64,000 bases of DNA. Source: Haematococcus lacustris. Lineage: Eukaryota > Chlorophyta > Chlorophyceae > Chlamydomonadales > Haematococcaceae. This document shows positions 6,791-63,415 of this stretch, in pieces. Location: NCBI GenBank assembly GCA_030144725.1, contig JASKMD010000017.1, forward strand, positions 6,691,992-6,755,991, given 5' to 3'. Position 1 is the stretch's first letter. Every line of letters begins with the position of its first letter. Both the position numbers and the translations under genes were made by a program. The notes beneath the pieces were generated by a model. That model ran no database searches and had not been told where the DNA came from. It saw only the letters and a program-made list of their open reading frames with translations.

Positions 6791-6808
6791 CAAGGCTGTG
6801 TGCCAGCA

Positions 6809-7003
6809 CCTTTGGCCCTCAACCTTGAGCCTTCATTGCAGTCGAACACACTAACTGTGGACCACTACAAAACGGTGTTTTGTCTGTGTGGTGTTCCCAT
6901 CACATGGCATGCTCATAGCCTATACATGGCATACACATGGTCATGGTCGCCTACCACCTACAGCATTGCCTGACCCCTGTGACAGGGCTATGCGTAGAGT
7001 TGG
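6809..7003 (-). mobile_element. 5'-truncated Fanzor-element 3' end, 18-bp TSD
   Basis: Minus-strand copy of the conserved 3' non-coding block, from GCCAACTCTACGCATAGCC to the fixed end ...CTCAAGGTTGAGGGCC. It is flanked by identical 18-bp copies CAAGGCTGTGTGCCAGCA at 6791-6808 and 7004-7021. The coding part is missing entirely. A fixed 3' end, 5' truncation and a long duplication resemble target-primed insertion. Confidence 0.8.
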
Positions 7004-7135
7004 CAAGGCTGTGTGCCAGCATGCAGTCGCTTGCCAGTATGCCGTGCACCTTGCTGCCCCATGGACCTGATCGCCCTCTCCCCACCATGACCTTTCAGCA
7101 GCAGTGCCTTGCACCCCTTAGGCCCAGTCAGCTCT
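7004..7135 (+). repeat. Dispersed repeat, copy 1 (copy 2 at 10115-10262)
   Basis: 'ggctgtgtgccagcatgcag' through 'caggcccagtcagctcta' recurs at 10115-10262 in the same orientation. One copy is the target of the truncated Fanzor-end insertion. Confidence 0.7.
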
Positions 7136-10100: not shown

Positions 10101-13100
10101 ACCAAACCAATAAAAATGGCTGTGTGCCAGCATGCAGGCGCTTGCCAGTATGCCGTGCACCTTGCTACCCCATGGACCTGGACTCCCTCTCTCCACCATG
10201 ACCTTCCAGCAGCAGTGCCCTGCACCCCTTTCCCCCATCCGCCTCAGGCCCAGTCAGCTCTACGCATAGCCCAACTCGCATAGCTCAACTCTACGCATAG
10301 CCCTGTCACAGGGGTCAGGCAATGCTGTAGGTGGTAGGTGACCATGACCATGTGTATGCCATGTATAGGCCATGTATAGGCCATGAGCATGCCATGTGAT
10401 GGGAACACCACACAGACAAAAACACCGTTTTGTAGTGGTCCACAATTAGTGTGTTTGACTGCAATGAAGGCTCAAGGTTGAGGGCCAAAGGTGCTGAGCG
10501 TGGCAGGGATTGTGGTGACAGCTGACTGTGTCGAGCATAGAAGGTGTCGGCATGATGGCTTGCGGGCAGCTCACCTCCATGCGGGAGGCGGTGTTCATGG
10601 AATCGCTGCAAGGAGGGTCAGCAGGCAGGTAGGGTCAGCGCAGGGATCAGTGGCAGAGCTAGCACCAGAGCAGACCAGGCAGTACTGAGCCAAGGTCTAA
10701 TGGTTTAGGGTGGGTGTCCAGGATGCTGTGTGCTGTCCCTCCTGTGAGGGTGACCAACGCTCATACAAACCAACACGGGGATGGCGTGGGTGTCACCTGG
10801 TGCCGTGCAACCACTCACCCAAAGATGGAGAACTTGGGCAAGCGGCTGCCAATGAGGCCGCTGGTGCAGTCGCCGGTGTGCAAGCCAATGCGTATGCAAG
10901 CTGGCTCTTGGTTGTGTGGCATGCGAACCTGGACAACAGATTACCACAGGCAGGTGGTGATGGTGGTGGTGGCTGTATGTGTAGAGCTGCATCAGCACTC
11001 ATGCATGCAGGGTGACTTGTCTTGCACCAGCTAGTCGCAGCATTGTGCTGGCCATACCTTTTGCGCTGCTGCAAGCATGTCTTTTGCAAAGCTCAGGACA
11101 CGGCGTGCACTGTCAGCAGCATCGTGTGAGGTCAGGACGTGCATGTAGCCGTCTGAGCCCTACACAGCAGCACCCACACAGCATCTAGCGGTGAGCTCAG
11201 GCTGCCATGTTCACGACCTTAGCAACCAGCACATCACCTAGCAGGCCACCATAGAATGCAAGTGCAATGGCTGGGCCTGCTGGTGCTTGCTAGGCAAACA
11301 TAGGACCTGTGCCCATCACCGCACAGCAGACATGTGCAGGCACCAGTTATATCAACAGCACTGATGGCATAAGGCATGCATCGTGCAGGCAGCAGCAGGC
11401 AACCACCCTGACGGCATCAGCAGCGGCATCAGCGGCATCAGCAGACTCAGCTCACCTGAGCCACCACACCAGCGCTGACAATGTAGCAGTCACCTGCAGG
11501 ACAGCGACGTAAGGCACCAACAGCAGCAGAACATGAAAGGCACCATAACCTTACAAACAAGTGATGAATGCAGGGCATTGCAATGTCGTAAAGGGTGCAG
11601 GAGGTTCGCTCTGCTCAATTCCAGCACAGCTTAATTTGAGCTTCAACTCTCAATGGTGACAAAATGGAAGCACATGGCGTGTTCCCACACAATAGCCTAG
11701 AAGATGCATGTACAGCCAAGAAGACACATGCGCAGTGTACAAGGCACAAGTGTTGGTAGCACGTGCATGGGACAAAACAGGGAGGGGGAAGGGAGCCCTC
11801 AGGGAGGGTGGAGCTCAAGGGTAAACCAATCCCAGCATTGGTTGAGTTTGAGGCCCCCGGCAGGCCAGGTGAACCTCCGCCTGCTGCGCCCAGCATAGTA
11901 GCAACGGTGTGACCAGCCAGTCCAGGGGCCTAATGTGGTGCCACGCAGTGGCCCCACGCATCGTGCCCGCAGCCACATGCAGCCAGACAACCCCACAGCC
12001 AGCAGCCTCTGAGCCTGGGCCCAGCACTCTAGCGCCAGCCAAGCGCACCAAGGCTGATCAGGCAGCTGAGCCCACCAAGGGCACAGGCCAAGGCAAGGGC
12101 AAGGCTGCCCGGGCCTAACAAGCCTCACAGCCAGGCAGGTGAGTAGACAGGGACTGCAATGCAGCGCTGAACATGCAGCGCATTGGGGAGAGCAAGTGGC
12201 GCCCACTGGAGCTGTGCTGGTGGCCAGAGCAGGGGAAGCTGCCCGCCAAGGGCAAGGAGTACCCTGGCCTGGGGTACAAGCGGCTGCGAGACAAGCCACC
12301 CAAGGCCCAGCAGCAGCAGCCTGCTGAGGCACAGTAGTTAGTGCCCCCCCTTTGAGCTGTCATCAGCTTTCCATTAGTGCATGTTTTGTCATGCCAACTC
12401 TACGGTGTAGCCCTCCGGGGTCAGGCAATGCTGTAGGTGGTAGGCGACCATGACCATGTGTATGCCATGTATAGGCCATGAGCATGCCATGTGATGGGAA
12501 CACCACATAGAAAAAACACTGTTTTGTAGTGGTCCACAATTAGTGTGTTCGACTGCCACGAAGGCTCAAGGTCGAGGGCCAAAGGTGCTGAGCGTGGCCT
12601 AGGTGCTGTGTCAGTGCATATGGGTGCATATGGGTGCATTTGAGCTACCACCGCGTTAAGCGTGTGCATCCAGACCTCTAGAGCTTGTTTGCTTTGAGCA
12701 GCTAGCTATCATGCCAAACTGGCTAGCATGCCACACTGGCTAGTCGCGCCTCAGGAACACCATTGTGGACGTGGTGGCCTTTGGTGGCTGATGTTAAGCT
12801 ACTGGACACAGACTGTACTGTGCTTGGCATGAACAACATACACAGTAGCCTAGAACCCGACACCCCCTTTGCCAGCATGCCGAGCATACACTGGTTGCTT
12901 TGCTGCATTGCATTCTTGCCAGACGTGAGGCTGAGCGCTTGCAGGCCTGCCTATGTATGCGTCCATAGAGCTGTGATGAGGCAGCGTCCTCTTACCTGCA
13001 GTCTCCACCTGCATGGGCAGCCACGTGCAGCACGCATGACATTCAGATGCCGCACTTTGTCACAGTGAAGCAGGAGCAGGCGCCCCAGTACAGGAGCTGG

Positions 13101-16100
13101 TGGTGGGCTGCTGAGTTAGGGCTGCGACAAACAAGCCATCTAGCCACCTCCTCAGAGGGCCAGTCAGCAGGGCAGGGGGTAGTCAGCTTCCTGATACTGT
13201 CAGGGACCTCTGACCAGGCATGCAATGTGCACAACGTGCTGCAAGCACACTGTGCAGCACAGCACCGGTCCCTCACCTTGTGCACGCCATGGCGTTCAAC
13301 GAGGCGGTCATACAGTGAGAACAACTGCAGTGTGCAGCACGACGTACCAGTCAAACAGGGGCACCACCTCGTCAAGCCAAAGGCACATCAGGTACCCTCA
13401 GCACACCCGCCAGCCTTAGCTTGGCTGCTGCCCCATTTTCACTCGTCACTGCCCACACGTCAGGCTCGAGCTCGACCCCTGCAGCATGATGCCCTGCCAC
13501 TACGAAGGCAGTGGGTGTGGGGGGAGGAGGGAGGCGGGCGTCAGGCATGATGTCCATCTGCTCACCTCGTTGAGGAAGGCCATGACCTCTCCAGCGCTGA
13601 TGGCCTTGGACATTGACGTGAACCCAACAATGCTGCACCACAGCCAGCACAGAGGATGAGAGCAGGTGTACAGTCACAGCTGCACCACACAGGCTGGATA
13701 TGACCTAGACCTAGACTCTGCATTAACAGACAGTGACAGTGAGCAGGAGCCACCATCCACTCTGCAGCTTCAAGTCTGAAGGGCCAGGACTGCATGTGGC
13801 TTGCATGATGGGAACACCACACAGACAAAACACTGTTTTGTAGTGGTCCACAATTAGTGTGTTCGACTGCAATGAAGGCTCAAGGTCGAGGGCCTAGGTG
13901 CTGTGAGAGAATGTCGGGAGTAGGGGCGGCCTGACCCTAGACTATCCATTAACAGACAGTGACAGCGAGCAAGGGCCACCATCCACTCTGCAGCTGCAAA
14001 TCTGCAGGGCCAGGCGCTCACTCCATGAAGAGCAGTGTGACGTCATGGTGCCCAGTTGCCACCGAGCTCATGCTCATGCTGGGATTCAGCCCACGCCCGT
14101 TGTTGCAGGCCAGGTATGCTATGATGTGGTGGGGAAACATCTGCACATCATGGTTACACAGGGCATCAGACCGAGGAGGCACACCAGACAGAGCAGGCAG
14201 TGGCGCCAGCAACAGCCCAAGCAGGTTATGTGACAGGCAGCCTTGACAAAGGAATGAGGCATGGCATTGCTCAAGCATGCCTGATCCCACTCTGACTGCT
14301 TAGCAAACCTGCCTATGGCACGGCAGAGTGTGTCATGCACAAACCACGTCAGCTTGCATAAGTGCATGTCTGTCATGCCAAAATGAATGTCACCCTTCGC
14401 ATGTTGAGATAACATAGCAGGTTGCACGATCCCGCAGCCCTCACAGACACCATGTGGGTGGATTTCAGGCTGTTTAAGAACAGAAACTGCAAATGGTATG
14501 TACTGTTTGCCTCAGCATAGGAAGGCATCGCAGGGTGCCTGCAAGGACCAAGCCTGGCGTGTGGCTTCCTCAGCTTTGTGTTGCTTATGTGGAGAGTATG
14601 ATGCTGCTGGGGTCATACCGCCCACCCCTTCCTTCCCCTTGTGTTTGAGTTGTATCCTGAGCGACAAACCAGATGCTGGCCATGGTGCGGCCAGCCATGC
14701 CCCTGGGTCCCCGGCCCCTGGGCTGCCACTGCACCTGTGACACCATCTGCAGCTGGCTGTCAGTGACCTGCACCAGCAGGTCCTCCAGCTGGGACCGCAC
14801 TGTGATGTCACACTGGCTCACCAACAGCACTTGCCTGCAGACAGGGGCATCACAGGGCCCAGCAGGCCAGCAGTGAAAGGGGGTGATAGCAGCAGCTGAT
14901 GGTACTGCCCGATGATGGCTGGACAGGCAGGTAAGAGCCAGCAACAGCCTGCCTTTACGGCATGGAGGCGCAGGGCTGCAGAGCAGCTGCTGCTTGCACA
15001 GTCTCACAGCCATGCTGGTGTCCAGCTACAGCTCTGGCTGAGGCAATGCGCTGAGCTCGTGGAGTGCAGCAGAGCGCACGCTGAGATGAGGGCGGCACCG
15101 CGCACTACTCACTGCAGCGTCTGAGGGTGTTGCACACAGCGCACCACCACCTCCTTCACACTGCGCACTGCCAGGTGGCCAGGGGCCCCGGCCAGCTCCT
15201 CAGGCCGGCTGGTTGCAGCAGGCTTGGCCAGGAAGGCCAAGGATGAAGGTCCCTGCTGCTGGACGCCTACCCGGGCTGTGGGCTGCTCTGCCAGTCCCAG
15301 GGAGGTGAGGAGCTGCACTTCCAAATCCAGCTTGCTGCTGGACCTGCTGGCTGGGGTCGTGATGGAGGCACAGGTGGGCAGCACTGCCTCCTGGGCTGCC
15401 TGCGCAAGGGCCTGGTGAGCACCCTGACCCGCATGCTCCTCAGTGCCTGCCGTTGCTGGCACGGCTGCTGGTGAGGGGAAGTCTGTGAATGCAGGGGCAG
15501 GCCCTGCTTGGGCTGGCCCTTCTGGTGCTGACAGGTGGCTGTGGCCGGTGCTGCTGAAATGAGTACTCTGGGGTGTAGGCATTTCCAGCTTGGTGCCTTG
15601 CAGGGAGGTGGGGTGGAAGTGCTGGCTCAGCACCAAGTCCGTGACAGAGCAGTTTAGGTGGTCTTGAGAAGACCCTGCCAGGCTGTGAAAGGGGACAGGG
15701 CGCGGGGGGAAGGGCAGCATGAGCTGGGGCATGTCTTCTGCTCCGCCCATGGCTGCAGCTGGCTTGCCTGGCTGGTCAGTGGTGGTGGCCTGGAACATAG
15801 TGGAGGACAGGGAGAGGGAGGGAGTGGAGGGGCTGGGGGAGCCTGGCGAGTGGGCTGCGTCCCCTGGCCCGTGCTGGTGGGAGGGTTCGGGGAACATTCT
15901 GCTGGTGCTGGGGACTGTCTGTGCTGTAGGGGGGCGGCTGCTGGCAGCCAGGGTTTGCAGCATGGCGGACACCTGGGAGGAGGGGAGCAGTGCAGGGCAC
16001 ACTGTGCACAATGGCCTAGTACACAGCAACTTGCCTTGAACACGCAGTGATGACAAGAGCATGTGGGGAAGCGAGGATGCCACCAAAGGCTAAGCCACGG

Positions 16101-19907: not shown

Positions 19908-22455
<2,548 letters not shown>

Positions 22456-25427: not shown

Positions 25428-27283
25428 CGTGAATTTGTGTTTAATCCAGCAACACAAATTGGGGTGGGCATTGACCCTGGCGTCACTCGAAGTCAGGCCA
25501 GCTGGTAGCTGACAAGCTGGCTTGGTAAAAGCTGACCGAAGGCCAGGCGAAGCATGCCAGTGGCCTGAACAATGCTGGCCGCACCACCCAGCGATGGCTA
25601 TCACCAATTCAGCCCCACCTCCAGCACCTCGCAGCAGCCAGCTCAGCCGGCACCTCCCTGGTCGCCAACCTTAAGCACATCACAGTCACCCTGGCCACCT
25701 GGGATGCGGTGTGGGAGGTGTACCTGGACCCCATGTGAGCACGGCAACGGCTGCGGCTGTACAGAGCCCAGGACCGGGCGCTGGAGCAGTTCTTTAAGAA
25801 GGTGAGGGTGGGTAGGTGGGAGGGAGGGTTAGGTACTGAGAGGCGGGCGGGCGGGCGGGCGGGCGGGCGGGCGGGCGGGCGGGCGGGCGGGCGGGCGGGC
25901 GGGCGGGCGGGCGGGCGGGCGGGCGGGCGGGCGGGCGGGCGGGCGGGCGGGCGGGCGGGCGGGCGGGCGGGCGGGCGGGCGGGCGGGCGGGCGGGCGGGC
26001 GGGCGGGCGGGCGGGCGGGCGGGCGGGCGGGCGGGCGGGCGGGCGGGCGGGCGGGCGGGCGGGCGGGCGGGCGGGCGGGCGGGCGGGCGGCGGGCGGGCG
26101 GGCGGGCGGGCGGGCGGGCGGGCGGGCGGGCGGGCGGGCGGGCGGGCGGGCGGGCGGGCGGGCGGGCGGGCGGGCGGGCGGGCGGGCGGGCGGGCGGGCG
26201 GGCGGGCGGGCGGGCGGGCGGGCGGGCGGGCGGGCGGGCGGGCGGGCGGGCGGGCGGGCGGGCGGGCGGGCGGGCGGGCGGGCGGGCGGGCGGGCGGGCG
26301 GGCGGGCGGGCGGGCGGCGGGCGGGCGGGCGGGCGGGCGGGCGGGCGGGCGGGCGGGCGGGCGGGCGGGCGGGCGGGCGGGCGGGCGGGCGGGCGGGCGG
26401 GCGGGCGGGCGGGCGGGCGGGCGGGCGGGCGGGCGGGCGGGCGGGCGGGCGGGCGGGCGGGCGGGCGGGCGGGCGGGCGGGCGGGCGGGCGGGCGGGCGG
26501 GCGGGCGGGCGGGCGGGCGGGCGGGCGGGCGGGCGGGCGGGCGGGCGGGCGGGCGGGCGGGCGGGCGGGCGGGCGGGCGGGCGGGCGGGCGGGCGGGCGG
26601 GCGGGCGGGCGGGCGGGCGGGCGGGCGGCGGGCGGGCGGGCGGGCGGGCGGGCGGGCGGGCGGGCGGGCGGGCGGGCGGGCGGGCGGGCGGGCGGGCGGG
26701 CGGGCGGGCGGGCGGGCGGGCGGGCGGGCGGGCGGGCGGGCGGGCGGGCGGGCGGGCGGGTCCATGGAGCGCCATGGGCGTGCCAAGCAGCTGGGGGTGT
26801 TCTTTGGTGCAGCTGGCATTGGCACCCGAGGAGCACCGCACCACCCGGGTCAGCTCAGCAGTGAATGGCCAGCAGCCCTGTGAGGAGCTGGACCATGAGC
26901 AGCCCACCAGGCGTGCAGGCTGAAAGCCCCCAGCAGGGCAGGTGGACCTCCGCCTGCTGCGCCCAGCCTGGAGCCAGCAGCGTGACCAGCCAGTGAAGGG
27001 CATGATGTGGTGCCCGGTAGTAGCCCCCCACCAGCCCCCACAGGCCCCATGCAGCAGCCAGGAGGCCACACAGCCAGCAGCCTCAGAGCAGGGGCCCAAC
27101 ACTCCCCCGCCAGCCAAGCGTAGCAAGCGCACCAAGGCTGAGCAGGCAGCTGAGCCCACCGAGCCTACTGAGGGAATTGGCAAGGGCCAGGGCAAGGCTA
27201 CCAAGCCCAAGCCATCCCCACAGCCAGGCAGGTGGCTGGACAGAGACCGCAATGCAGCGCTCAACATGCAGCGCATAGCGGAG
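25428..27283 (+). pseudogene. Fanzor-like pseudogene (copy F8) with giant intronic repeat
   Basis: Begins at the RuvC-I region (EFVFNPATQIGVGIDPGVTR) right after the LINE fragment, with frameshifts after it. The stretch to the intron donor at ~25800 corresponds to F1. The intron holds a ~920-bp tetranucleotide array. Next come MERHGRAKQLGVFFGAAGIG and a deletion that joins GIGT to RTTRVSSAVNGQQPCE, losing the VDEH residues. MMWCPVVAPHQPPQ, PAKRSKRTKAEQAAEP and RWLDRDRNAALNMQRI follow. Homology stops at AESI, where the sequence jumps into a variant 3' block. Not functional. Confidence 0.8.
25842..26760 (+). repeat. (GGGC)n tetranucleotide array, ~920 bp
   Basis: Almost uninterrupted GGCG/GGGC repeat with only three single-base slips (near 26090, 26314, 26626). 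It lies in the Fanzor F8 intron; in copy F1 the same intron is about 140 bp and lacks it. All six frames are open, hence long false Arg-Pro/Ala-Gly-Gly ORFs. Confidence 0.97.
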
Positions 27284-29655: not shown

Positions 29656-29671
29656 TGCTGGATAAGCCAAG
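29656..29671 (+). repeat. Left 16-bp target-site duplication of F1 element
   Basis: TGCTGGATAAGCCAAG is identical to 33749-33764, immediately outside the other end of the element. Confidence 0.88.
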
Positions 29672-30952
29672 CCAAATTCATCCAGGGGAGAACATGGTTG
29701 ACATCTGGGAGAACATGGTTGGCCCTTTGGAGGGGCCCTTTGGAGGTGCCCTTTGGCAATGCCCTTTGGAGGTGCGAGAGTGAGTGACATCGCCTCCTGG
29801 GTATAAGTGGGTAGCAGCAGGTGTGTGCCGATATGAGCCTAGTGGCGCAATGCCTCCGAGGAAGCGGCCCAGTAGCGCGGATCAAGAGCCGCAATCTATT
29901 GAAATCCTAACTTATCTTATTTAAATGTTCGTCGTAGTCGTGGTGTGGTCCGCTGCAACTATGCAGTCCGGTGAGCTCTGCGCTGCTCACATCGCTACTG
30001 TTCATGCCAGCGCAGGTCCTTGCACCCCTCCAGGCAAACAACGCGAGGAGCGAAGGGCTGAATGGGCGACCCAGCGACGACAGGTGCGCATCCGCCTCCC
30101 CCGCCGCCTTGTATGCCCCCGCACTGTTTGTGTCCCCGCATTGTGGCCCCGGATTGTGTGGCGGCCTGTCAAAATGGTGATTGTAATTGGCTGCAGGTCA
30201 TCAAGGTCCCGGAGTGCGCTGTGCTGCGCGGGTGCAAGAAGACGAAGCGCAAGCTAAAGGCGCACTTCCAACTGAGGGCTGGTGTGCACAGCCAGCTCCG
30301 TGTCATCGCCTCGTTGTATGTGCTCAGGATCTTCCTGACATGCTTGGTGGGTTACTCCACCCCAGGGTTCCGCAGCGCCCTACACCTCCAACCGTGCAGC
30401 CTCCTCGTGCACTGGATGCTGCCCCTTTACCCCCACTCCCCCTGCGTGTCCCTGCCCAGCCAGCAGCCCTGGCTATGGACTGGGATCCTGAGGCTGAGCC
30501 GGAGCCTGAGCCAGAGCCTGAGCCAGAGCCTGCCCCAGCGCCACCCACGCTGCGGCCACCCAGTGCCCGCCTCGCTGCCCGCCACCCCCCAGCAGCAGCA
30601 CCCACTGGGCCACCCATGCCCCTTGACAGCGAAGATCCCGTCATGCTGCAGCAGCTGCAGGTATTCTGTGAATACTTTGCTAACTCCAAGAAGTTGACAC
30701 CCTACAACCAGCTGCAGCGGCGGCTTGGGCGCCCAAGGCAGATCCTACACTACAGCATCAAGCCCGCCTTTGATGACCCCAGCAACCAGGAGCTGCTGGC
30801 CAAGCTGCAGCAACTTGGCAGCGTCAACCTGACCGGGGACAACAACACCATCAGCCATCACTCCATGCAGCTTGCGGTTGCCATGCAGCAGCACTACTCC
30901 AACCCAGGCAAGTGATGGTGGTGCATAGAATCTGGACCTGGACCTTGATATA

Positions 30953-31052
30953 GACCTGACCCTGACCTGACCCTGACCCTGACCCTGACCCTGACCCTGA
31001 CCCTGACCCTGACCCTGGCCCTGACTCTGGCCCTGACCCTGACCCTGACCCT
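30953..31052 (+). repeat. (GACCCT)n array in Fanzor intron
   Basis: About 15 units of GACCCT/CCCTGA, with GGCCCTGACTCT variants, between the two N-terminal exons of F1. Confidence 0.9.
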
Positions 31053-32198
31053 GACCTGCATGCATGCAGAACGCTATCTCAAGCTGTACGCCAAGGCAGC
31101 CAGGGCCCGGCTATGCTGGAGCGGGGAGGAGGCTCAGCTGTTCATCAGGATGGCGTGTGGGTACAGCCTCGACGCTGACAGCCCTGAGCTGCAGGCAGCC
31201 ACCCTGGACAAGGGACACGTGGCTGACCTGATAGAGGAGGCAGCCAAGTAGCGGAGACTGCTGGCCCTGGAGGAAAATGAGTCCTTGCAGGACACCGTGC
31301 CCTCCCCTGCCGCATGCGCCATGCGGTGCATGTGTGCAGGTGCCTGGAGCAGTGGCAGCAGCCCCCCACCCCACCCGTGCCAGGCAAGCCAAAGAGTGGC
31401 AGGCGTAGGGTAGGTCCCCTGGTTCTGACCTGCCCACCCCCCTTCACCCTCACGCCCATGGCCAAGGTGGGCATCCACTTCATCAAGGTGGACAGCAGAG
31501 TGCTCCACGGGGTGTGCCAGCAGCTGGGGCTCACGAGGGAGACAGCGGATGTGTTCACCGCAGAGCCAGCCCGTAGCCAGCATTGAACCAGGTGGTTCAG
31601 CACGGGGAAGCTGGCCAACCAGGGGTTTGAGTTCGAGAGGACGGTAGAGACAGATGGCATCAGTGTGTGTGTGCAATACACCCGCCCCCTCCCAACCCCT
31701 CCTGCGCCACCCTCAGCAGCAAGCCCCTCCAGCAGCAACAGCAGCCCAGTGGCAGCCCCAGGTGCAGCAGCTGTAGCGGCCCATGAGTTGGGCCTGCCCC
31801 GCATTGGCAAGGGCCTAGCTGAAACACGGCAGTTTGTGTTCAACCCAGCCACCCAGATTGGGGTAGGCATTGACCCTGGCGTCACCCAGGCAGTCAGTGC
31901 AGCCTCAGGGGTGTGGGATCCGGCAACAGGCCAGCTGATGGCAGACCAGCTGCGCCGGTGGAAGCTGACCAAGGGCCAGGTCAAGCATGGCAGTGGCCTG
32001 AACAATGCCCGCCATGACACCGAGCGGTGGCTGGCTCCTATCAAGCCACACCTCCAGCACCTGGCAGCAGCAAGCTCAACCGGCACCTCCCTGGAGGCCA
32101 ACCTGAAGCACATCACCGTCACCCTGGCCACCTGGGATGCGGTGTGGGAGGTGTACCTGGACCCCAAGTGGGCACAACAGCGGCTCAGGCTGTACGGA

Positions 32199-32544
32199 CA
32201 CTCCTACAAATTAATCCCTGCGTCCGTCCCTGCGTTTTGACCAACCTTGTCCGATCGGGCTGAAAATTTGATAGATGGTAGTTTGCAGAATATAAAACAT
32301 ATTTTTAGGATAAAATATTTTAAAAAAATCAAAGGCGGCTGCGCTGTGGCCCTGTGGCTAGAGTGCAGGGATGAGTGCAGGGATAGGTTGCGGGCCACAG
32401 CGCAACAGCTTTTGGATTTTTCCAAATATTTTTCTTGAAAAATATGTTTTATTTTCCGAAAACTGCCATCTATCAAATTTTCAGCCCGATCGGACAAGGT
32501 CGGTAGAACGCAGGGACAAACGCAGGGACTAAATTGTAGGAGTG
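32199..32544. mobile_element. Foldback MITE inserted in Fanzor F1
   Basis: Inverted repeats of about 115 bp start CACTCCTACAAATTAATCCC and end with its inverse (TTTAGTCCC version). Both include CCTTGTCCGATCGGGCTGAA. The insertion separates 'gctgtacgga' from 'gctcaggaccgg', which are continuous in copy F8 as 'ctgtacagagcccaggaccgg'. No clear TSD beyond one base was found. Confidence 0.82.
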
Positions 32545-33498
32545 AGCTCAGGACCGGACACTGGAGCAGTTCTTCAAGAAGGTGCGGGTGGGTGGGAGGG
32601 AGGGAGGGTGAGGGACTGAGAGTTGGTGGGTTGGTAGGAAGTGAAAGAGGTGTTGCAAATGAAATGCCTAACTGTGTGCCACCATGTCAGCCATCCTCTG
32701 TTTGCCTTGTGTGCATGGCTGCAGTTGGAGGAGGACATGTAGGAGGTGTCCATGCAGTGGCATGGGCATGCCAAACAGCTGGTTTTCTTCTTTGGAGCAG
32801 CTGGCATTGGCACAAGGGGGGGCTGGGGTGCTGATGCGGTGCTGCGTGCCTGCTGCAAGGTGGTGTGCAGGCCCAGGGGCACAAACCAGCAGCGGGGCAG
32901 GGTGGTGCTTGTGGATGAGCACCGCACCAGCCGGGTCAGCTCAGCAGTGAATGGCCAGCAGCCCTGTGAGAGGCAGCTGAACAAGCGCAGGGCCACTAGG
33001 CCTGCAGGATGGAAGCCCCCAGCAGGGCAGGTGAAACACTGCCTGGTGCGCCCAGCCTGGAGCCAGCAGCGTGACCAGCCAGTGGGGGGCATGATGTGGT
33101 GCCCGGTAGTGGCCCCCCGCAAGCCCCCACAGGCCCCACGCAGCAGCCAGGAGGCCACACAGGCAGCAGCCTCAGAGCCTGGGCCCAACACTCCCCTGCC
33201 AGCCAAGCGCAGCAAGCGCACCAAGGCTGAGCCGGCAGCTGAGCCCGCAACGGGCAAGGGCAAGGCTGCCAAGGCAAAGCCAGCACCACAGCCAGGAAGG
33301 TGGCTGGACAGGGACTGCAATGCAGCGTTGAATATGCAGCGCATTGGGGAGAGCAAGTGGCGCCCACTGGAGCTGTGCTAGTGGCCAGAGCAGGGGAAGT
33401 TGCCAGCCAAGGGCAAGGAGTACCTTGGCCTGGGATACAAGCGGGTGCGAGACAAGCCACCCAAGGCCCAGCAGCAGCAGCCTGCTGAGGCACAGTAG

Positions 33499-33748
33499 TG
33501 TGTGCCCCCTCTTTGAGCTGTCATCAGCTTTCAATTAGTGCATGTTTGTCATGCCAACTCTACGCATAGCCCTGTTACAGGGGTCAGGCAATGCTGTAGG
33601 TGGTAGGCGACCATGACCATGTGTATGCCATGTATAGGCCGTGAGCATGCCATGTGATGGGAACACCACACAGACAAAAACACCGTTTTGTAGTGGTCCA
33701 CAATTAGTGTGTTCGACTGCAATGAAGGCTCAAGGTTGAGGGCCTAGG
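33499..33748 (+). mobile_element. 3' non-coding block of F1 (reference copy)
   Basis: Follows the F1 stop: CTTTGAGCTGTCATCAGCTT, CAATTAGTGCATGTTTGTCA, GGTCAGGCAATGCTGTAGG, ACCATGACCATGTGTATGCC, ACAAAAACACCGTTTTGTAG and GCTCAAGGTTGAGGGCC. The block includes self-complementary parts (CATGGTCATGGTC-type and AAAACACCGTTTT). It recurs in at least eight places. In TnpB systems the guide RNA overlaps this end of the element, so a candidate omega-RNA role is inferred only. Confidence 0.7.
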
Positions 33749-33764
33749 TGCTGGATAAGCCAAG

Positions 33765-42014: not shown

Positions 42015-42278
42015 TGTGTTGCTCCAGCACCTAGGCCCTCAACCTTGAGCCTTCATTGCAGTCGAACACACTAATTGTGGATCACTACAAAACGGTGTTT
42101 TTGTCTGTGGTGTTCCCATCACATGGCATGCTCACGGCCTATACATGGCATACACATGGTCATGGTCGCCTACCACCTACAGCATTGCCTGACCCCTGTG
42201 ACAGGGCTATGCGTAGAGTTGGCATGACAAAACATGCACTAATTGAAAGCTGATGACAGCTCAAAGGGGGGGCACACA

Positions 42279-42975
42279 CTACTGTGCCACAGCAGGCTGC
42301 TGTTGCTGGGCCTTGGGTGGCTTGTCTCGCACCCGCTTGTATCCCAGGCCAAGGTACTCCTTGCCCTTGGCTGGCAACTTCCCCTGCTCTGGCCACCAGC
42401 ACAGCTCCAGTGGGCGCCACTTGCTCTCCCCAATGCGCTGCATATTCAACGCTGCATTGCAGTCCCTGTCCAGCCACCTTCCTGGCTGTGGTGCTGGCTT
42501 TGCCTTGGCAGCCTTGCCCTTGCCCGTTGCGGGCTCAGCTGCCGGCTCAGCCTTGGTGCGCTTGCTGCGCTTGGCTGGCAGGGGAGTGTTGGGCCCAGGC
42601 TCTGAGGCTGCTGCCTGTGTGGCCTCCTGGCTGCTGCGTGGGGCCTGTGGGGGCTTGCGGGGGGCCACTACCGGGCACCACATCATGGCCCTCACTGGCT
42701 GGTCACGCTGCTGGCTCCAGGCTGGGCGCACCAGGCAGTGTTTCACCTGCCCTGCTGGGGGCTTCCAGTCTGCAGGCCTAGTTGCCCTGCGCTTGTTCAG
42801 CTGCCTCTCACAGGGCTGCTGGCCATTCACTGCTGAGCTGACCCGGCTGGTGCGGTGCTCATCCACAAGCACCACCCTGCCCCGCTGCTGGTTTGTGCCC
42901 CTGGGCCTGCACACCACCTTGCAGCAGGCACGCAGCACCGCATCAGCACCCCAGCCCCCCCTTGTGTCCGTGTCC
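42279..42975 (-). pseudogene. Fanzor-like C-terminal half (copy F4), open frame
   Basis: Uninterrupted from GGWGADAVLRACCKVVCRPR through VVLVDEHRTSRVSSAVNGQQ, RPAWSQQRDQPVRAMMWCPV, RKPPQAPRSSQEATQ, PAKRSKRTKAEPAAEP and RWLDRDCNAALNMQRIGESK to ...QQQQPAVAQ stop. It has no internal stop, unlike F1, so it is the best-preserved C-terminal half. RuvC-I is missing, so no complete nuclease is encoded. The shared SSAV in place of a CxxC pair is clear here. The linker lengths match F1. Confidence 0.85.
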
Positions 42976-43061
42976 CCACTAACCCACCACTCCCTCGTCT
43001 GCCCATGCACTACCATGCACCATACTGCCCGGGACGTCTCGTATCGCCGTAAACCGCACCA

Positions 43062-43140
43062 TGGCGGAGTCTTTGGTCGTAGCTGCGGACCGTGCGTTTG
43101 TAGAGTAGGACTACGACAAAGCAGTGCAAGGCTACACCGA
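43062..43140 (+). pseudogene. SGT1-like TPR N-terminal fragment
   Basis: ATG at 43062 reads MAESLVVAADRAFVE, TAG, DYDKAVQGYTD, which resembles the first TPR helices of SGT1-type co-chaperones (A..AF...DYD.A...Y). The frame has a stop, and the match ends at the TSD of the Fanzor element. It lies antisense at the 5' terminus of that element. Short, so the family call is tentative. Confidence 0.45.
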
Positions 43141-43155
43141 TGTGTTGCTCCAGCA

Positions 43156-45834: not shown

Positions 45835-48800
45835 ATGGCTCTTCACGCACAGGATTCGCTGGCTGCCCTGGATGCATGTGCACTGCATTCCATTCTTGCG
45901 CACTTGGCTCCCAAAGACCTGCTCGCCGCGTGCTTGGTGTGCAAGAACTGGCGGACCCTCGGACTCGATGCCAGGCTGTGGGACAGACACTGCCAGGTAC
46001 ATAGGCCGTCATGTAGCCCAAACCCTAACCCACACATACACACATATACTTTGGAGCTGTAGGTGCCAAAGTTATAAGGTCAGAGGGCAGGCAGGGTCAA
46101 GCCGCATGGTCTTTTGGCACATTGGCAGCCTGCCTACGTGCACCTGCAGGAGTTGTGGGTGGGCAAGGTTTACGTGCCCTTGTCCATCAAGCATCACAGC
46201 AATCGGCTGACGGCCTACAGCCGCAGCATTGCCGACTGCCAGCGTTCTGCCATCACTCAGGTACTAGTCGTCAGCCACAGAACATCAACGATGGCCAGCA
46301 ACACTGCCTGCAATTAATGCAAAGGGTGTGAGTGACAGCGGCAGTGCCAGTGCTGCATATGGGCCTGTGCTCTAGGTCACATCTTGTTGGTCTTTGTCCA
46401 GTGACGGTCAGGCAGCAGGCAGCTCGTTATGCCAAATGTGGGCGATTGTCATTAACTGCCGATGGACAACTGCATGCCGCGTGGGTTAGCCATACCAGTA
46501 CAGCTCTCGTGACCATACCAGCACGAGGCTCTAGCACCGCTCTCAGGGCATGCACGCCTCTCATCCCGCCTGCCAGGCAAGAATGCGGTATGTGGATGGT
46601 GGCAGCCTTGGCAGCCCTGCTGAACCCTGGTGTGACAGTGTGACTAGGTCATGGCCAGTGCACGCGGGTGCTGCTGCCCGCTGCTGTGTGCAGGATGAGC
46701 TGGTGACCTTCACCTGGACCTTCTGCTTCAAGCACTCAGCTGGTGAGCACCGCGGGAGGGGCTAGGCTGACCTGGGCTGTTGGTCGTGGCAGCACCTTTC
46801 TTTCTCCTCATTGGATTGTAAGGTTAGGAAGGTTAGGAACCACACCTTCAAGAGAAGCCACACCTCGCTACCTCGCACACCCCATGTGCGCCATCATGCA
46901 GGTTGTGCAGCAGCCCAGTAACATTTACCAGCAAGTGCTGGCAGCACACCTCACCTCATTAACACCCCCAAGGCAGCAAACAATATGAGCGCTTAGATAT
47001 GTCAATGCCTGTGTGCGTACAGCCTGCCATGTGTGTGAGTGTGTGTGTGTGTGTTTTCATGGATGAGATGCAAGAGGGCCTTACTGAGTAGTGTGATATC
47101 AATTCTGCTGCCAGGGGGGTGCCTCGCCCTGGTGCACATCTCATACACTTGTGCGCCACACTTGTATCAACGTGCTTGGCTGGACTAGGTGGTTGAAAAG
47201 CACCACCACCACCCCTATACCCTAACATCAACCTCAGCCCCAAAGCCCTAACCCTAAGCTGTAGGCTGTGCGGGATAAGCCAGTCACATGGGCTGGTGTC
47301 GTGCAAGCCCCTGCCCATGTGTAGGGGCAGGCGAGGCTGGTGTCCCAGTGCTGGTGAGGGTGCTGCTAGAGAGGGTGCCAAGGGCAGGGGTGAGCAGGGG
47401 TGCCTGTCACCACATGACCCTGCACAGGCTGAGGCTGCTGGCTGAGGCTGAAGCTGCTGGCTGCTGTCCGCAGGGCCCTTCTGGCGAGTGCTCATAGGAG
47501 ACATCCCCTTGGTGGGTGCTGCTGTGGCTCCCAGCTCATGCAGCCCATGCAGCCCATGCAGCCCATGCAGCATCCCACTCACCTTGCCCTACACACCCCG
47601 TCATGCTCTCCTCTCATAGCTGACATACATGGCTTGTTTTGGCACTCCTTTGCATACCACACTCTAGCAGCAGAGGCTCGCAAACACGCGCTCAACCCCA
47701 ACAGCACCTAGGCCCTCAACCTTGAGCCTTCATTGCAGTCGAACACACTAATTGTGGACCACTACAGAATAGTGTTTTGTCTGTGTGGTGTTCCCATCAC
47801 ATGGCATGCTCATGGCCTGTACATGGCATACACATGGTCATGGTCGCCTACCACCTACAGCATTGCCTGACCTCTGTGACAGGGCTATGCGTAGAGTTGG
47901 CATGACCAAACATGCACTAATCGAAAGCTGATGACAGCTCAAAGGAGGGGCACACACTACTGTCTGTGATTTTGATCCGCGCTACTGGGCCGCTTCCTCG
48001 GAGGCATTGCGCCACTAGGCTCATATCTGCTAACACCTGCTCACACCAACTTATACCCAGGAGGCGATGTCACTCACTCTCGCACCTCCAAAGGGCAATT
48101 CCAAAGGGCACCCCAAAGGGCACCTCCAACTGGACCCCAACAGCATCAGCCAGCAGGGTTGGTGTCAGCGTCGCCCTTCAGGCAGGCATGAGCCACTACC
48201 GCAGGCTGGTCACTGATGATGGCATAATGTGGCAGGGCAAGGCACTCCAGCTCATCCCAGTCCTAGCACCAATGCACTCCAGCAGCTGTGGCTCAGGCCA
48301 GTGGTTCAAGCACAGGGCAGGCCATCTGCCCTGTTGCATGCGGACCTCCCAATCATAGAACAGGCAGGCTGTGCAGGGCTCTGTTGGTGAGGTGCCTGCC
48401 AGGCTGCTCAGGGTTGTTGCAAAGAGGCTCTTCTTCCCTGAAGGCCACTCCTACAATACGACAGGAACTTGTGTGGGAAGGAGTGTGGGTCCTGTTCCGT
48501 GCAGAGGCGTTGGTTCCACCGTGACCACACCATGACGGGACCCAAAGAAGGTCAGGCACCCGGCACTTCATGACATCATCAGCGCAGCCCCTAGGTAGTG
48601 GGGGCAGGCAATGCCCAGGCGGAAGTTCCTCCCTGGCACTGACACGCACCCTGGTTCCTCCTGAGATCCCTCTTCTTCTTCTTCTTCTTCTTCTTCTTCT
48701 TCTTCTTCTTCTTCTTTTTCTTCTTCTCCTTCTCAACTCCACCTACTTGCCTGATAGTGAACCACAGCCAAACTAGGAAACACCTGGAACCAACCCCTAC

Positions 48801-52034: not shown

Positions 52035-55000
52035 ATGACTTCCGTGGACCGCGCTGGGTACATGGACAGCCAAATGTCCAGCATCATCACGGAGCAGATA
52101 CAAAAGGAACGCAAGTGAGTTCCCGCATGTTCGCTGCTCCTTCGAGCACTGCATCTCACCGACTTGGAAAGACCTCCACACCCCAACACACACAATTGTC
52201 TGCTCTTGGCCCTCATAGGATTCAGCGTAATTACTTTGAAGAGCAGGAGGCAGCGGGCTTGATCATCCCTAAGCCCCCAACACCCCCAGTCCCTACAAAG
52301 ACTGTACTGGAGACAGTTGGCCTTCCACAACACGTGCGAACATTGCATGCGGACCCCATCCAGACCATGAACACCACCATCTCCAGTGAGTGCAGTCAGG
52401 GATCCAAGCCTAACCATGACTTGCTCATGTGCTGCCAACAAATGCCTGACCCTCGTGGGCTCAGGCCTGACAATGCCCTGGGGCTCTCTGATGGCTTACA
52501 CAGCCTGCAGCTTCTGTGGCACCTTTCTACGATTGTGTCTTTTTGTTTCCCACATGGACAGTAGCATCACCATCACACTCTTACCATCACCATCGCCACC
52601 ACTAACAGGCACCCACATCAATAAGCACCCATACAAATGTCAGATAGCATGGCAGACTAGTCAATTACCAGTTCCTCGCTAAATACAGGCCAGACATAGC
52701 TCAGCACACACTACTGCGCTCCAGGCCCATCCTGCTGTGCCCTGGAGGGGCATCCTCCCAGACTTTTGAAACCCGAGCCAGGGCGCTCTCTTCCCTTGGC
52801 AGCCAGAGCTAGCTGCCCTGGCCGCTAGCACAGCTGCAGCATGTACCACATGGTCTGTGGAAAGATCCTTACACGGCAAGATGGTGGTGGCCTTGCTTGA
52901 CAGCCTTCACCCCCTCTTCCCAACACCATGAACACAACATGGAGTGGGGCCATAACCACAGGACCCAGTTTGAGAGAACCTGTATCTGCCCCTACACAAT
53001 GCCATGTAGGAACATGACCTGCCACTTTGCCTGCTATCAATCGCCCTATCTTGTTGTACTGACTGTAGTGCTCTTGGTAGACCTCCGTCAGCACCTTGGC
53101 CCTCAACCTTGAGCCTTCATTGCAGTCGAACACACTAATTGTGAACCACTACAAAGCAGTGTTTTATCTGTGTGGTGTTCCCATCACATGGCATGCTCAT
53201 GGCCTATACATGGCATACACATGGTCATGGTCGCCTACCACCTACAGCATTGCCTGACCCCTGTGACAGGGCTATGCGTAGAGTTGGCATGACAAAACAT
53301 GCACTAATTGAAAGCTGATGACAGCTCAAAGGGGGAGCACACACTACTGTGCCACAGCAGGCTGCTGCTGCTGGGCCTTGGGTGGCTTGTCTCGCACCCG
53401 CTTGTATCCCAGCTCAGGGTACTCCTTGCCCTTGGCGGGCAGCTTCCCCTGCTCTGGCCACCAGCACAGCTCCAGTGGGCGCCACTTGCTCTCCCCAATG
53501 CGCTGCATGTTCAGCGCTGCATTGCAGTCCCTGTCCAGCCACCTGCCTGGCTGTGGTGCTGGCTTTGCCTTGGCAGTCTTGCCCTTGCCCTTGCCCTTTG
53601 TGGGCTCAGCTGCCGGCTCAGCCTTGGTGCGCTTGCTGCGCTTGGCTGGCAGGGGAGTGCTGGGCCCAGGCTCTGAGGCTGCTGCCGGTGTGGCTTCCTG
53701 GCTGCTGCGTGGGGCCTGTGGGGGCTTGCGGGGGGCTACTACCACAGTTGCAGCAAACCACACCACGACTACGACAAACCTTGTTTTTGCGGGCTTTCAG
53801 TCGGATGCGGCTCTTGCTCCGCGCTACTGGGCCGCTTCCTCGAGGCATTGCGCCACTAGGCTCATATCGGCTCACACCTGCTGATACCTACTGATACCCA
53901 GGAGGCGATGTCACTCACTTTCGCACCTCCAAAGGGCATTGCCAAAGGGCACCCCAAAGGGCACCTCCAAAGGGCCAACCGTGTTCTCCCAGCGCAGCGT
54001 CAGCGCAGTGTCAGCGCAGTGTCAGCGCAGTGTCCTGGCCTGCAATGGCTGCAAGATCATGTTAGATGCTAGATGGTGCAACAGATGGCCCTCTGATCTT
54101 ACCGTAGTGCACTAAGCCTTGGCCAGTAGCTGTCAGGCAGCTACTACACATGCCATGGACACACTCGTGCTGCTGCTTACATAGCTAGTATGGCGGGCAG
54201 TCCCATCGTCATGAGGCTGCTCGCACTACTAGCTATGAGTACCATCATGAGCACAAGGCACCATGCCAAACTGCACCGCTGCAGGCCACCAACCCAAAGT
54301 CATGCTGGGCAGGCTGACAGCCCCAAGCGTGGTGTTGTCTCGCCGCAGAATCCATGTGGGTCAGCAATGCTGGGTACCTTGTGCGTGATGGCCCTCGCAT
54401 GGCGTCCACCACCAAGAAGGACTTCCTATATGACGAGGAGGAGCTGGCTTATCAGAAGTCCCTGGGCTTCATGGACAAGACACACAACAGGTGGGCATGA
54501 CCCATCTGCTTTGCCCTGCAATGTACTGCCTGTCCGGCATCACACTTCAGCCCTGCACCACTCATTCATGGGGTAGGCAGTGTAGGGTGGATTCATGCAG
54601 TGGCTGCCATGCTGAGAGGTTGCGCCAAGTCACAAATGATACTGCTCACATGGAGGCGTAGCTTGCTGGTGAGCAGGATGCATCTGGCAACAGCCAGCGG
54701 TCAAGCAGTCGGTCAGTCTATACTGCAAGTGCCCCAATCTCAGCCACCACCACCACCTTTCAGCTTACATCCACCTTTGCCCTGGCCAAGTGCTTCCCCT
54801 CATCTTAACCAACCCCAGCCGGCCAGGCATGAGTACAAAATCATCAGCAACAGCCACTACATATCCACCGCCCCTGTCATCAAACCACTTCGCTATTGCC
54901 GCAAGCCCTGTACACTGGGGGTGGATAGCAGCCCGGACACAACACCTTGGAACATGTCCTGCCATTGTGCCAGTCAACGGTCAGCTCTGCGGAGTCCACC

Positions 55001-56313: not shown

Positions 56314-57958
56314 AGTCAGGCGTTCCCAACATGGGGTTGGTAATCTTCATGCAACTGCGGCCCATCTACTCCATCATTTGATGTAACGTTTGCTGCGTCT
56401 GCTGCAATGCGATATTGCGCGTTTAATGTCCGACTGGAATTGCCATCGGAGTCTTTCGATGCGGGCAGCCACATGTGACCCCGGATGTGTCCCAATCGCA
56501 GACCGTGGTTAGCTACACTGGTAAGCTACGTCCTTGGCTATCCGTTAGCGATGCACGACATGTCGGTGGCGCACACCACTGAAGTCCGGCAAACATGGCT
56601 GCGCGAGCTTCTTGATGGTGCAGGCCGCATGGCGAGGATGTGAAGGAACCCCGGTTTGTGTGTGGCAGCGCTGTATCGCTGTAATGGTGGGCGGCACAGT
56701 AGGGACTAGTCACCCCCTCCAGCTATGATCCGCTTTATGTTTTGCACCATTAAACAAACAGCCTGCCCTCACACATACCATTTGTAGCATACTCATTAAC
56801 GCGTCCATGACACTATGCAACTCAATCATTGGGTTTGTATGTGACAAGTTATACCGCTTACAAGGTACACATGCTGATGGCTACAGGTGCACGAGCAGCC
56901 GACTGAGCTTGGCTTACCACTCCGCCACGTGGCCACCACCAACACATCCTAACCCACCACCTCCCAACCTCGTCTACCCCGCCCAGCTCCCAGTAGCCCC
57001 TCCTCCCAGCCTGCCATCAGCCTCCTGCCCCCTAACTCTCCTTCTCCCCGCCTCCTACCTCTCCCCTACCTCTCCTTCACCCATCTCCCCCCTACCTCTC
57101 CTTCACCCATCTCCGTATCCATCACCCCCCATCACCCTGACCACCGAGCCAAGCCCGTAGCCCCGCTCAGCCACCTCTTGATCCCAAACCATGAAGAAGA
57201 AGAAATTAAGCAAGGCAAAGAGTGCTGATCTCCATGCACTAAACAAGTCGCCAAGGGCTGGCTATCTGCATTGCCCTAACAACATCAAGGCTGCAGCTTG
57301 TACGGCACAAGCGACAAACCGTGATCTGCAGGCTGAGGTGCAGCGGTTGAGGGATGTGGGGCAGTCCCTTATGGGCACAGTGGATGGGTTGCAGGGCAAC
57401 CTAGGGGCACAGTGGATGGGTTGCAGGGCGACCTGCAGGCAGCACACCAAGGCCTGCAGGGTGAGCACACGGCTTTGCAGCAGGTGGCATGCAGAGCGGC
57501 AGCTACCAATCACTCCCTACGGGCTGCTCGACGCAGCCTCAAGTGTCAGGTGCATAACTACCGGCACAAACGCCGCCCCCACCACTCCCCTCATGTGGGC
57601 CAGCTCATGTGGGCCAGCAAGGATGACGGCCTGCACGCTTTTGAGCTCTACCGCCACACCCAGGATGTGCTAGCTCGTCTGGGGACCTGGGACACATTGC
57701 CCCTTCTGGCAGGTCTGCATAGCCAGCTGCAACACTTGGTGCCAGCAGATCAGCGCGAGCAGCAGAAGCAGCAGCTTGCGACCTATTTGCAGGAGCACTG
57801 TGGTGCTATGTGGACTTACTACCAGCATCATGTGCAGGCTCAAATGGCCTTGCCCCACCTCTTCGCTGCTCTCGGCAGCTCAGACCAAGCTACGCGCATG
57901 GAAGTGGCGATTGATGTGGTGTACCATGCCGAGCTACGGCTGCCGCCGCCTGAGGATG

Positions 57959-58163: not shown

Positions 58164-58236
58164 AGTCAGGCGTTCCCAACATGGGGTTGGTAATCTTCAT
58201 GCAACTGCGGCCCATCTACTCCATCATTTGATGTAA
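57191..58236 (+). CDS. Coiled-coil/poly-Gln protein with frame-shifting duplication
   Basis: Starts MKKKKLSKAKSADLHALNKS and continues with a coiled coil (AQATNRDLQAEVQRLRDVGQ). At about 57375-57438 a 32-bp segment (ggcacagtggatgggttgca...) is present twice, shifting the frame by one. The downstream frame resumes the same repeat (VDGLQGDLQAAHQGLQGEHT) and stays open to 58236. Later parts are helical (DGLHAFELYRHTQDVLARLG, DQREQQKQQLATYLQEHCGA), then a Gln run (57961-58027), EDPYGTWRQYASDIRAMA and a short tail. No family recognised. Either the 32-bp duplication inactivates this copy or it is an assembly error. The second array copy is interrupted by an element. Confidence 0.5.
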
Positions 58237-58776
58237 CGTTTGCTGCGTCTGCTGCAATGCGATATTGCGCGTTTAATGTCCGACTGGAATTGCCATCGGA
58301 GTCTTTCGATGCGGGCAGCCACATGTGACCCCGGATGTGTCCCAATCGCAGACCGTGGTTAGCTACACTGGTAAGCTACGTCCTTGGCTATCCGTTAGCG
58401 ATGCACGACATGTCGGTGGCGCACACCACTGAAGTCCGGCAAACATGGCTGCGCGAGCTTCTTGATGGTGCAGGCCGCATGGCGAGGATGTGAAGGAACC
58501 CCGGTTTGTGTGTGGCAGCGCTGTATCGCTGTAATGGTGGGCGGCACAGTAGGGACTAGTCACCCCCTCCAGCTATGATCCGCTTTATGTTTTGCACCAT
58601 TAAACAAACAGCCTGCCCTCACACATACCATTTGTAGCATACTCATTAACGCGTCCATGACACTATGCAACTCAATCATTGGGTTTGTATGTGACAAGTT
58701 ATACCGCTTACAAGGTACACATGCTGATGGCTACAGGTGCACGAGCAGCCGACTGAGCTTGGCTTACCACTCCGCC
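58164..58776 (+). repeat. Tandem duplication, unit 2 (interrupted)
   Basis: Second unit of the 1850-bp array. It stops at 58776 at the element insertion and resumes at 63913, running off the window. Confidence 0.85.
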
Positions 58777-59767
58777 CAATCAGGTCTCCCGGAGAAAAGT
58801 ACCCAAATAGTACCTTTTTTGTTGTCAGGGAAAGGGGTACATTTGCCCAACCGCCAACCGCCCACTCCGCCCTGCCTGCCCGCTCTGCCCGTCCTCCGTC
58901 GAGGATTGTTGCTGCAGTGAAGAGGGCATCAGCAGGATGTTTGCAGCGCTATTAGAAGCGACCCAGATGCAGCGCCATTAGTAGCGACCCAGCTGCAGGC
59001 CCTTCAATGCGACCCAGCAAGGGCTTAAGAAACGCACCTAAACGGCGTGGTTAGCACCCACCAGCTCGTAACGCAGAGCCTCAGGCTGACCAGGACAATG
59101 CCCCAGAGCCACCCGCATTAACGAATGTAAGCTCGTGGCTGTGTGCCCAGTTCAGTTTAGTCCTCAGTTCCGAGCTCGCATTTTCGAGTCCGGGCATTTA
59201 CAAGTATACACGACGAGCGACGAACGCTACAAGACGCAGCAAGGACGCAGCAACTGCAGTACACAAGTGTATATGCTGCAGTGCATGAGCAACAGCAGGC
59301 TGCAGTGCAGGCTGCAGTGCATGAGCAGCAGCAGCAGTCTGGAGGACATGTGCTGCAGTGCACACGGTAAGTGGCTATCCCTTGCAACTATGTGGCTTTA
59401 TATACCTAGTCTGACCGCTAGCATGCCCTTGTTTGCTGCAGGTTGTAATGGCCACACCCATTCCCCTTTCCCACTACCACCACTGGCCCCTCCCCCCCCC
59501 TTCCCTATATGCCCACCCCCTCCCAACCCGTCAACAAACTCCCCACGCCCAGCCCAGCCCCAGTTTAATGATACCCTCCTTCCCCATTGCCCCTCCCCTC
59601 CCCTCCCCAGAGTAGCCATGAGCAGCCGCTAGGAGGAGCAAGGAGCAGCAGCCAGGAGCAGCAGCCAGGAGCAACAGCCAGGAGCAGCAGCCAGGAGCAG
59701 CAGCCAGGAGCAGCCAGGAGCGGCAGCTGAGCCCAACCTTATGACATGTCCATGACCTGACATGTCC

Positions 59768-63124: not shown

Positions 63125-63415
63125 CAGCACATGTCCTCCAGCCTGCTGCTGCTGCTCATGCACTACAGCCTGCTGTTGCTGCTCATGCACTGCAGCCTGC
63201 AGCTGCTGCTCATGCACTGCAGCTGCTGCTCATGCATTGCAGCCTGCTGCTGCTGCTCATGCACTGCAGCCTGCTGCTGCTGCTCATGCACTGCAGCCTG
63301 CAGCTGCTGCTCATGCATTGCAGCCTGCTGCTGCTGCTCATGCACTGCAGCCTGCTGCTGCTGCTCATGCACTGCAGCCTGCACTGCAGCCTGCTGTTGC
63401 TCATGCACTGCAGCA
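63125..63415 (+). repeat. 24-bp minisatellite expanded in right TIR only
   Basis: About eleven units of 'ctgctgctgctcatgcactg' plus 'cagc'. The matching place in the left arm (59275-59345) has only two to three units, so the arms have diverged by repeat expansion. Confidence 0.88.

Follow-up and report, generated by a model that had tools for sequence, protein, structure and literature searches.

How Fanzor elements enter new sites is the question raised by a 64,000-nucleotide stretch of the Haematococcus lacustris genome (order Chlamydomonadales, to which Chlamydomonas also belongs; contig JASKMD010000017.1, positions 6,691,992 to 6,755,991, hereafter the window), in which the Fanzor element F1 and several relatives are flanked by direct repeats resembling target site duplications (TSDs). 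A sequence-only reading of the window had proposed that these repeats begin with TGCTG and vary in length, that the 3' end of the element is fixed while its 5' end varies, and that the insertion mechanism may be new. The analysis described here makes it very probable that the family inserts in a one-ended, 3'-anchored and TSD-making manner. We read the copies as non-autonomous Fanzor1-like elements that would be copied from a DNA template in a rolling-circle, Helitron-like mode, and assign this reading a probability of about 0.5.

The 3' end of the F1 family is present in nine copies in the window, which are listed with their TSDs.

29656-29671, plus strand: 5' TSD of F1, TGCTGGATAAGCCAAG, preceded by A
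29672-33748, plus strand: Fanzor element F1, degenerate, with a palindromic insert of 346 bp inside
33749-33764, plus strand: 3' TSD of F1, TGCTGGATAAGCCAAG
42015-43155, minus strand: copy with a truncated 5' end, to which about 174 bp of foreign sequence are attached; TSDs of 15 bp, TGCTGGAGCAACACA, at 42015-42029 and 43141-43155
6791-7021, minus strand: truncated copy; 18-bp TSDs TGCTGGCACACAGCCTTG at 6791-6808 and 7004-7021
47695-48145, minus strand: internally deleted copy; 12-bp TSDs TGCTGTTGGGGT at 47695-47706 and 48134-48145
20962-21194, minus strand: 5' subrepeats fused to the last 71 bp of the element; 17-bp TSDs TGCTGGAYAGTGCTCTC at 20962-20978 and 21178-21194, with one mismatch
10492-12598, plus strand: copy whose 3' end is at 12585; TSDs probable, 13 bp each, at 10492-10504 and 12586-12598
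10286-10491, plus strand: truncated copy; 5' TSD not found
13806-13898, plus strand: truncated copy, followed by TGCTG; 5' TSD not found
53094-53992, minus strand: internally deleted copy, followed by TGCTG; 5' TSD not found

All five TGCTG-type repeats named in the sequence-only reading were recovered around Fanzor copies, the pair at 21 kb being the one with a mismatch. The copy ending at 12585 is less clear: its 5' TSD doubles as the 3' flank of the neighbour that ends at 10491, and the copy includes a stretch of 1.35 kb without a match.

For statistics, the window was combined with 200 kb of contigs C136 and C166, chosen blind to content, and with seven long-copy loci. In this sample 22 matching ends reach the 3' terminus and ten others stop short; after removal of three that belong to duplicated regions (one in L002, two in L004), 19 of the 22 remained, and TSDs were searched up to 1500 bp above the breakpoint (less at one locus). 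An exact upstream repeat was found at eight of the 19 ends, with lengths of 12-19 bp that bear out the proposed variability, and two further repeats of 17 bp with one mismatch bring the number to ten. Repeats of 10 bp and 8 bp at two other ends are doubtful, and an imperfect duplication of about 85-105 bp was found at locus L008. The sequence that follows the 3' end is TGCTG at 18 of the 19 ends and TGGTG at the remaining one. Genome-wide, the exact 3' end CTCAAGGTTGAGRGCCWAGG occurs 1510 times in the 307.9-Mb assembly (reversed control: 0) and is directly followed by TGCTG in 1341 cases, by which the fixed 3' end is substantiated.

Such repeats might be chance matches or pre-existing repeats of a CTG-rich genome, in which TGCTG is indeed frequent (one per 187 bases per strand, mostly with C before and after it). 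When the flank of one copy was compared with the upstream sequence of another, however, repeats of at least 12 bp were obtained in 4 of 342 mispaired pairs, as against exact repeats at 8 of 19 true ends; the four pairs are presumably ones whose windows overlap (ends 10491, 12585 and 13898; two ends in L006). Because of this control, chance or pre-existing repeats are rejected as an explanation that we regard as hardly credible, and the bases flanking TGCTG at insertions also depart from the background. Judged by sequence, the repeats around the Fanzor copies are real duplications of the TSD type, as the sequence-only reading held.

A purine precedes the 5' TSD in nine of nine cases (background 31%), a count that leaves aside the copy ending at 12585 and both doubtful repeats. 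At 18 of 18 ends, two of which have a common flank, the 3' TGCTG is followed by a base other than C (G, T or A; background 52% C). Both tests are post hoc, and the background contains CTG repeats and the elements themselves. The target motif is therefore wider than TGCTG and reads R|TGCTG-D, a form that was absent from the sequence-only reading and was not found in the accessible text of the literature examined. A second Fanzor 3'-end family ends in GCTG (window positions 39244, 41535 and, on the minus strand, 50260; further ends at L009 6612 and L012 8707, both minus strand, L019 2179 and L021 747). A convincing repeat was obtained at one of these seven ends; it is CTGCAGCGGTACAGGGC, of 17 bp, and begins with CTG, so that the insertion motif may differ between Fanzor families.

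The features of F1 are the following.

29725-29778, plus strand: 5' subrepeats of TGCCCTTTGGAGG-type units, whose number varies from copy to copy
29802-29806, plus strand: TATAA, upstream of the first ATG (29850)
30912-31069, plus strand: probable GT-AG intron containing a microsatellite of CCCTGA type
31665-32240, plus strand: frame with the RuvC-I motif GIDPG, interrupted by the palindromic insert
32199-32544, no strand: palindromic insertion of 346 bp, missing from other copies (query 2544-2889)
32582-32724, plus strand: GT-AG intron, its splice also present in gene model P0001
32746-33381, plus strand: C-terminal Fanzor frame with VDEHRTS and DRDCNAALNMQRI
33727-33744, plus strand: 3' hairpin GGCTC/GRGCC, ending 4 nt short of the junction

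At least two likely GT-AG introns are thus present in F1. GIDPG, VDEHRTS and DRDCNAALNMQRI are found in the family's predicted proteins, and GIDPG stands in the consensus of 14 as well as of 50 proteins; according to the accessible text of PMC10711439, a DPG motif in RuvC-I is confined to Fanzors and the TnpBs nearest to them, and its presence agrees with a Fanzor1 protein. The C-terminal TNB/RuvC-III domain (PF07282) scored 16 bits in the F1 frame, below the cut-off, and above it in five of 16 paralogues (best 38.4 bits), while the zinc-ribbon cysteines are largely lost. A protein search with residues 1-110 of P0009 had Haematococcus proteins among the matches listed, sequence searches of the PDB gave no match to any Fanzor, and an AlphaFold2 model of a paralogue (pLDDT, the predicted local distance difference test, 47.8) was too poor for use.

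Variable 5' ends, the counterpart of the fixed 3' end, were found as the sequence-only reading had stated: copies are truncated, extended, or fused to the 3' end through internal deletion. Shorter copies retain between 71 and about 1080 bp at the 3' end, and three of them are joined to 5' sequence via an internal deletion whose junction shows short homology or filler and in no case (0/3) corresponds to a splice junction. The 42-kb copy shares 172 bp of its foreign 5' sequence with C330:33630-33801 (98% identity), and L006 and L007 have about 110 bp of 5' sequence in common. The fixed 3' end, the target motif, the TSDs, the 5' heterogeneity, the fillers and the internal deletions are all directly visible in the copies. 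Conservation is 94% over the last 50 bp and 78-98% elsewhere, without a sharp peak at the 3' end. In a test for a 3' subterminal hairpin of the kind found in CRe-type Helitron2, folding gave a 5-bp stem in the ends of family A and another register in family B; covariation of the 3' hairpin between the two families, promising by eye, was dropped for that reason.

That one end is precise while the other end and the TSD length vary implies that one strand is joined first at the 3' terminus and that repair completes the opposite end; this fits target-primed reverse transcription as well as rolling-circle insertion from one end. The intron at 32582-32724 is kept in 36 of 36 spanning matches (F1 itself counted). 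These matches were the best hits to a query that itself contains the intron, so that intron-less copies are possibly under-sampled. Together with the deletion junctions, the retained intron rejects a spliced mRNA as template for the copies seen, and the earlier view that mature mRNA is not the obvious template is upheld by the introns inside the copies. All long copies (8/8) also extend upstream of the TATA box, and none of the 19 ends carries a poly(A) or simple-repeat tail. Of the traits of LINE-type target-primed retroelements, the 5' truncation with variable TSDs is thus present and the tail absent.

Penelope-like elements are known to keep introns. Target-primed reverse transcription in trans could be carried out by a non-L1 retroelement, either an RTE- or L2-like long interspersed nuclear element (LINE) or a Penelope-like element, whose enzyme would recognise the 3' hairpin of an unspliced, upstream-started transcript, with the cut strand, which ends in CAGCA, annealing to UGCUG at the end of the RNA. 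The 5' truncation, the 12-19 bp TSDs, the fixed 3' end and the exact start of the TSD at the 3' junction motif would all be accounted for, and the genome holds many reverse transcriptases (PF00078: 4540 first-look candidates, of which 150 were scored). Against it stand the missing tail and the introns, TATA box and upstream repeats that lie within the copies. The three PF00078 loci examined were Ty3/gypsy elements by reading, L033 being 95% identical to L034, and a LINE with the Fanzor 3' terminus, the check suggested by the sequence-only reading, was not found in a comparison with one resident L1-like LINE. We treat copying by such a non-L1 enzyme as the main rival to a DNA template, tentative but of appreciable weight. 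The L1 form, poly(A) retrotransposition in trans, is disfavoured because the resident L1-like LINE is A-tailed and the 19 Fanzor ends are tail-less; the presence of introns, a promoter and sequence upstream of it, with the tail missing, makes both mature mRNA and L1-type copying unlikely.

This LINE, which extends from L017:2356 to L018:1747 (C136, about 2,081,000-2,093,400), contains long open frames with RVT_1 and Exo_endo_phos domains and ends in a tail of about 26 A. Its copying by reverse transcription with a flanking duplication recalls the duplications around the Fanzor family, whereas the A-tail, the 3' end and the size of the flanking direct duplication (1.18 kb, 99.7% identity, far above the usual TSD size) are unlike those of Fanzor.

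A DNA template is somewhat favoured over an RNA template by the intron (36/36), the sequence upstream of TATA (8/8), the non-splice deletion junctions (3/3) and the tail-less ends (19/19), as well as by the foreign 5' sequence shared by the 42-kb copy and C330 and that common to L006 and L007. We infer that the enzyme acts in trans and that the strand events follow this order. A first cut, made where R|TGCTG-D begins on its left, would fall in the strand opposite to that of the future TSD, and the exact 3' terminus, consisting of hairpin, 4 nt and junction, would be joined to this cut or primed from it. Copying would then proceed toward the 5' end and might stop anywhere, with occasional jumps inside the element or into other sequence. 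A cut of the other strand 12-19 nt downstream, followed by sealing of the loose 5' end through host repair, would explain the variable TSD.

Precedent from the same order, Chlamydomonadales, supports copying from DNA. As far as the accessible text of Bao and Jurka (2013; PMC3627910) goes, on which all statements on CRe and MCi-2 elements here rest, the Fanzor1 elements CRe-1/2/3 of Chlamydomonas reinhardtii were assigned to non-autonomous Helitron2 and show 5' truncation, 3' over-abundance, internal deletions and 5' fillers. The Haematococcus family resembles them in its intron-bearing Fanzor gene, its 5' truncation with intact 3' ends, its internal deletions and its fillers. TSDs of about 7-19 bp with a few of 44-443 bp in CRe compare with 12-19 bp and the single imperfect duplication of L008 in Haematococcus. 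The motif differs, since TTTT lies upstream of the TSD in CRe while TGCTG lies inside it in Haematococcus.

Several observations weigh against rolling-circle copying of a Helitron kind, in addition to the sampling of introns described above. At seven of the 19 ends no upstream repeat longer than 7 bp was obtained within the searched flank. The long copies F1, L005 and L008 carry TSDs, whereas full-length CRe copies carry none. CRe ends resemble those of resident Helitrons, while no Helitron sharing the Fanzor end was found among the candidates examined: the resident Helitron C22/C56, whose ends were placed (5' TCTACATATAAAA, 3' CCCTAG), has no end in common with the family, and the divergent pair C1/C100 showed nothing common in the parts compared, which stop short of its ends. 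The asymmetric terminal inverted repeats of Helitron2 were not found in F1, the only copy subjected to this test and one whose 5' end is possibly not ancestral; the longest inverted match between its 5' and 3' ends is 7 bp, and shuffles average 6.9. The Helitron at C22:7539001-7549000 (L038, L029, L036) has 5' TC and 3' CTAG ends, and the 5' end of a second copy directly follows CTAG.

The 5' ends of MCi-2 elements in Mucor circinelloides are fuzzy, and the TSDs of these elements follow the pattern ATAATTNNNN(N) (PMC3627910). MCi-2A and MCi-2D share with the Haematococcus family a fixed 3' end, a variable 5' end and TSDs that start with a motif, ATAATTNNNN(N) in the one and TGCTG plus variable sequence in the other. 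They differ in that 11 copies with TSDs of 11 or 12 bp stand against at least 1510 exact 3' ends with TSDs of 12-19 bp, and in that MCi-2A holds a partial Crypton transposase, a gene not seen in the Haematococcus copies read. The IS200/605 and IS607 carriers of TnpB share the RuvC-type TnpB/Fanzor nuclease gene with the Haematococcus family and make no TSDs, as the sequence-only reading had held and as is stated in PMC3627910.

The recurrence of motif-linked TSDs in three Fanzor1 families with differing partners (CRe, MCi-2 and Haematococcus) raises the idea that the Fanzor nuclease itself sets the site. The guide RNA (reRNA) of Fanzor would start at the element 3' end, and TGCTG would form its last scaffold or first seed bases, passed on with each insertion. 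The junction of element and TSD sits at the reRNA/guide boundary of known elements, and Fanzor1 reRNA scaffolds are predicted to include TSDs in the accessible text of PMC10711439. However, the nuclease would have to act in trans, given that a Fanzor gene is missing from the many short copies, and an intact TGCTG remains beside the inserted element, where it would be exposed to cutting. We consider this idea improbable. The three families differ in partners and motifs, yet in all of them the TSDs are tied to a motif, the 3' end is fixed and lies at the boundary between reRNA and guide, and the 5' end is fuzzy. On these grounds Fanzor1 proteins might direct a distinct one-ended, 3'-anchored insertion pathway, a proposal that we think is probably wrong; it is equally doubtful that the reRNA end would determine R|TGCTG-D and that each insertion would pass the motif on.

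A new insertion mechanism is not upheld, since the same architecture was reported for CRe-1/2/3 and MCi-2 in 2013 (PMC3627910) and the insertion syndrome is to that extent already known. What the Haematococcus family adds is abundance, a motif that lies within the TSD and whose neighbouring bases are constrained, and the presence of TSDs at long copies. No description of this family was found in a literature search with thin subscription coverage, which yielded versions of one Auxenochlorella paper for Fanzor in Haematococcus, and PMC3627910 and an Ectocarpus paper for Fanzor TSDs in Chlamydomonas. In the accessible text of the literature examined, the role of Fanzor for its carrier transposon and the insertion mode of CRe- and MCi-2-like elements are open; with at least 1510 exact 3' ends, a sharp junction motif, readable TSDs and a host from the order of a laboratory model, the mechanism becomes testable in this family.

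Some further observations concern the copies and their surroundings. The other Fanzor copies, in which the palindromic insert of F1 is missing, display its empty site; Rfam gave one weak microRNA match within the insert, below the cut-off. A plasmid DNA search gave no match. A long GGCAGGC-type minisatellite lies in a Fanzor copy at about 25770-26830 of the window, at the place of the second intron. At C136:3569821-3570027 and C136:4839290-4839508 an inverted piece of the last 66 bp adjoins an internal piece of the element. Several Fanzor copies of the window (C64, about 6.70-6.74 Mb) are matched by near-identical counterparts around 8.55 Mb (C64, about 8.54-8.57 Mb), resembling an inverted segmental duplication. 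Finally, the window contains a 613-bp direct repeat with 100% identity (56314-56926 and 58164-58776) and a 582-bp inverted repeat with 98% identity (58777-59358 and 63331-63912).

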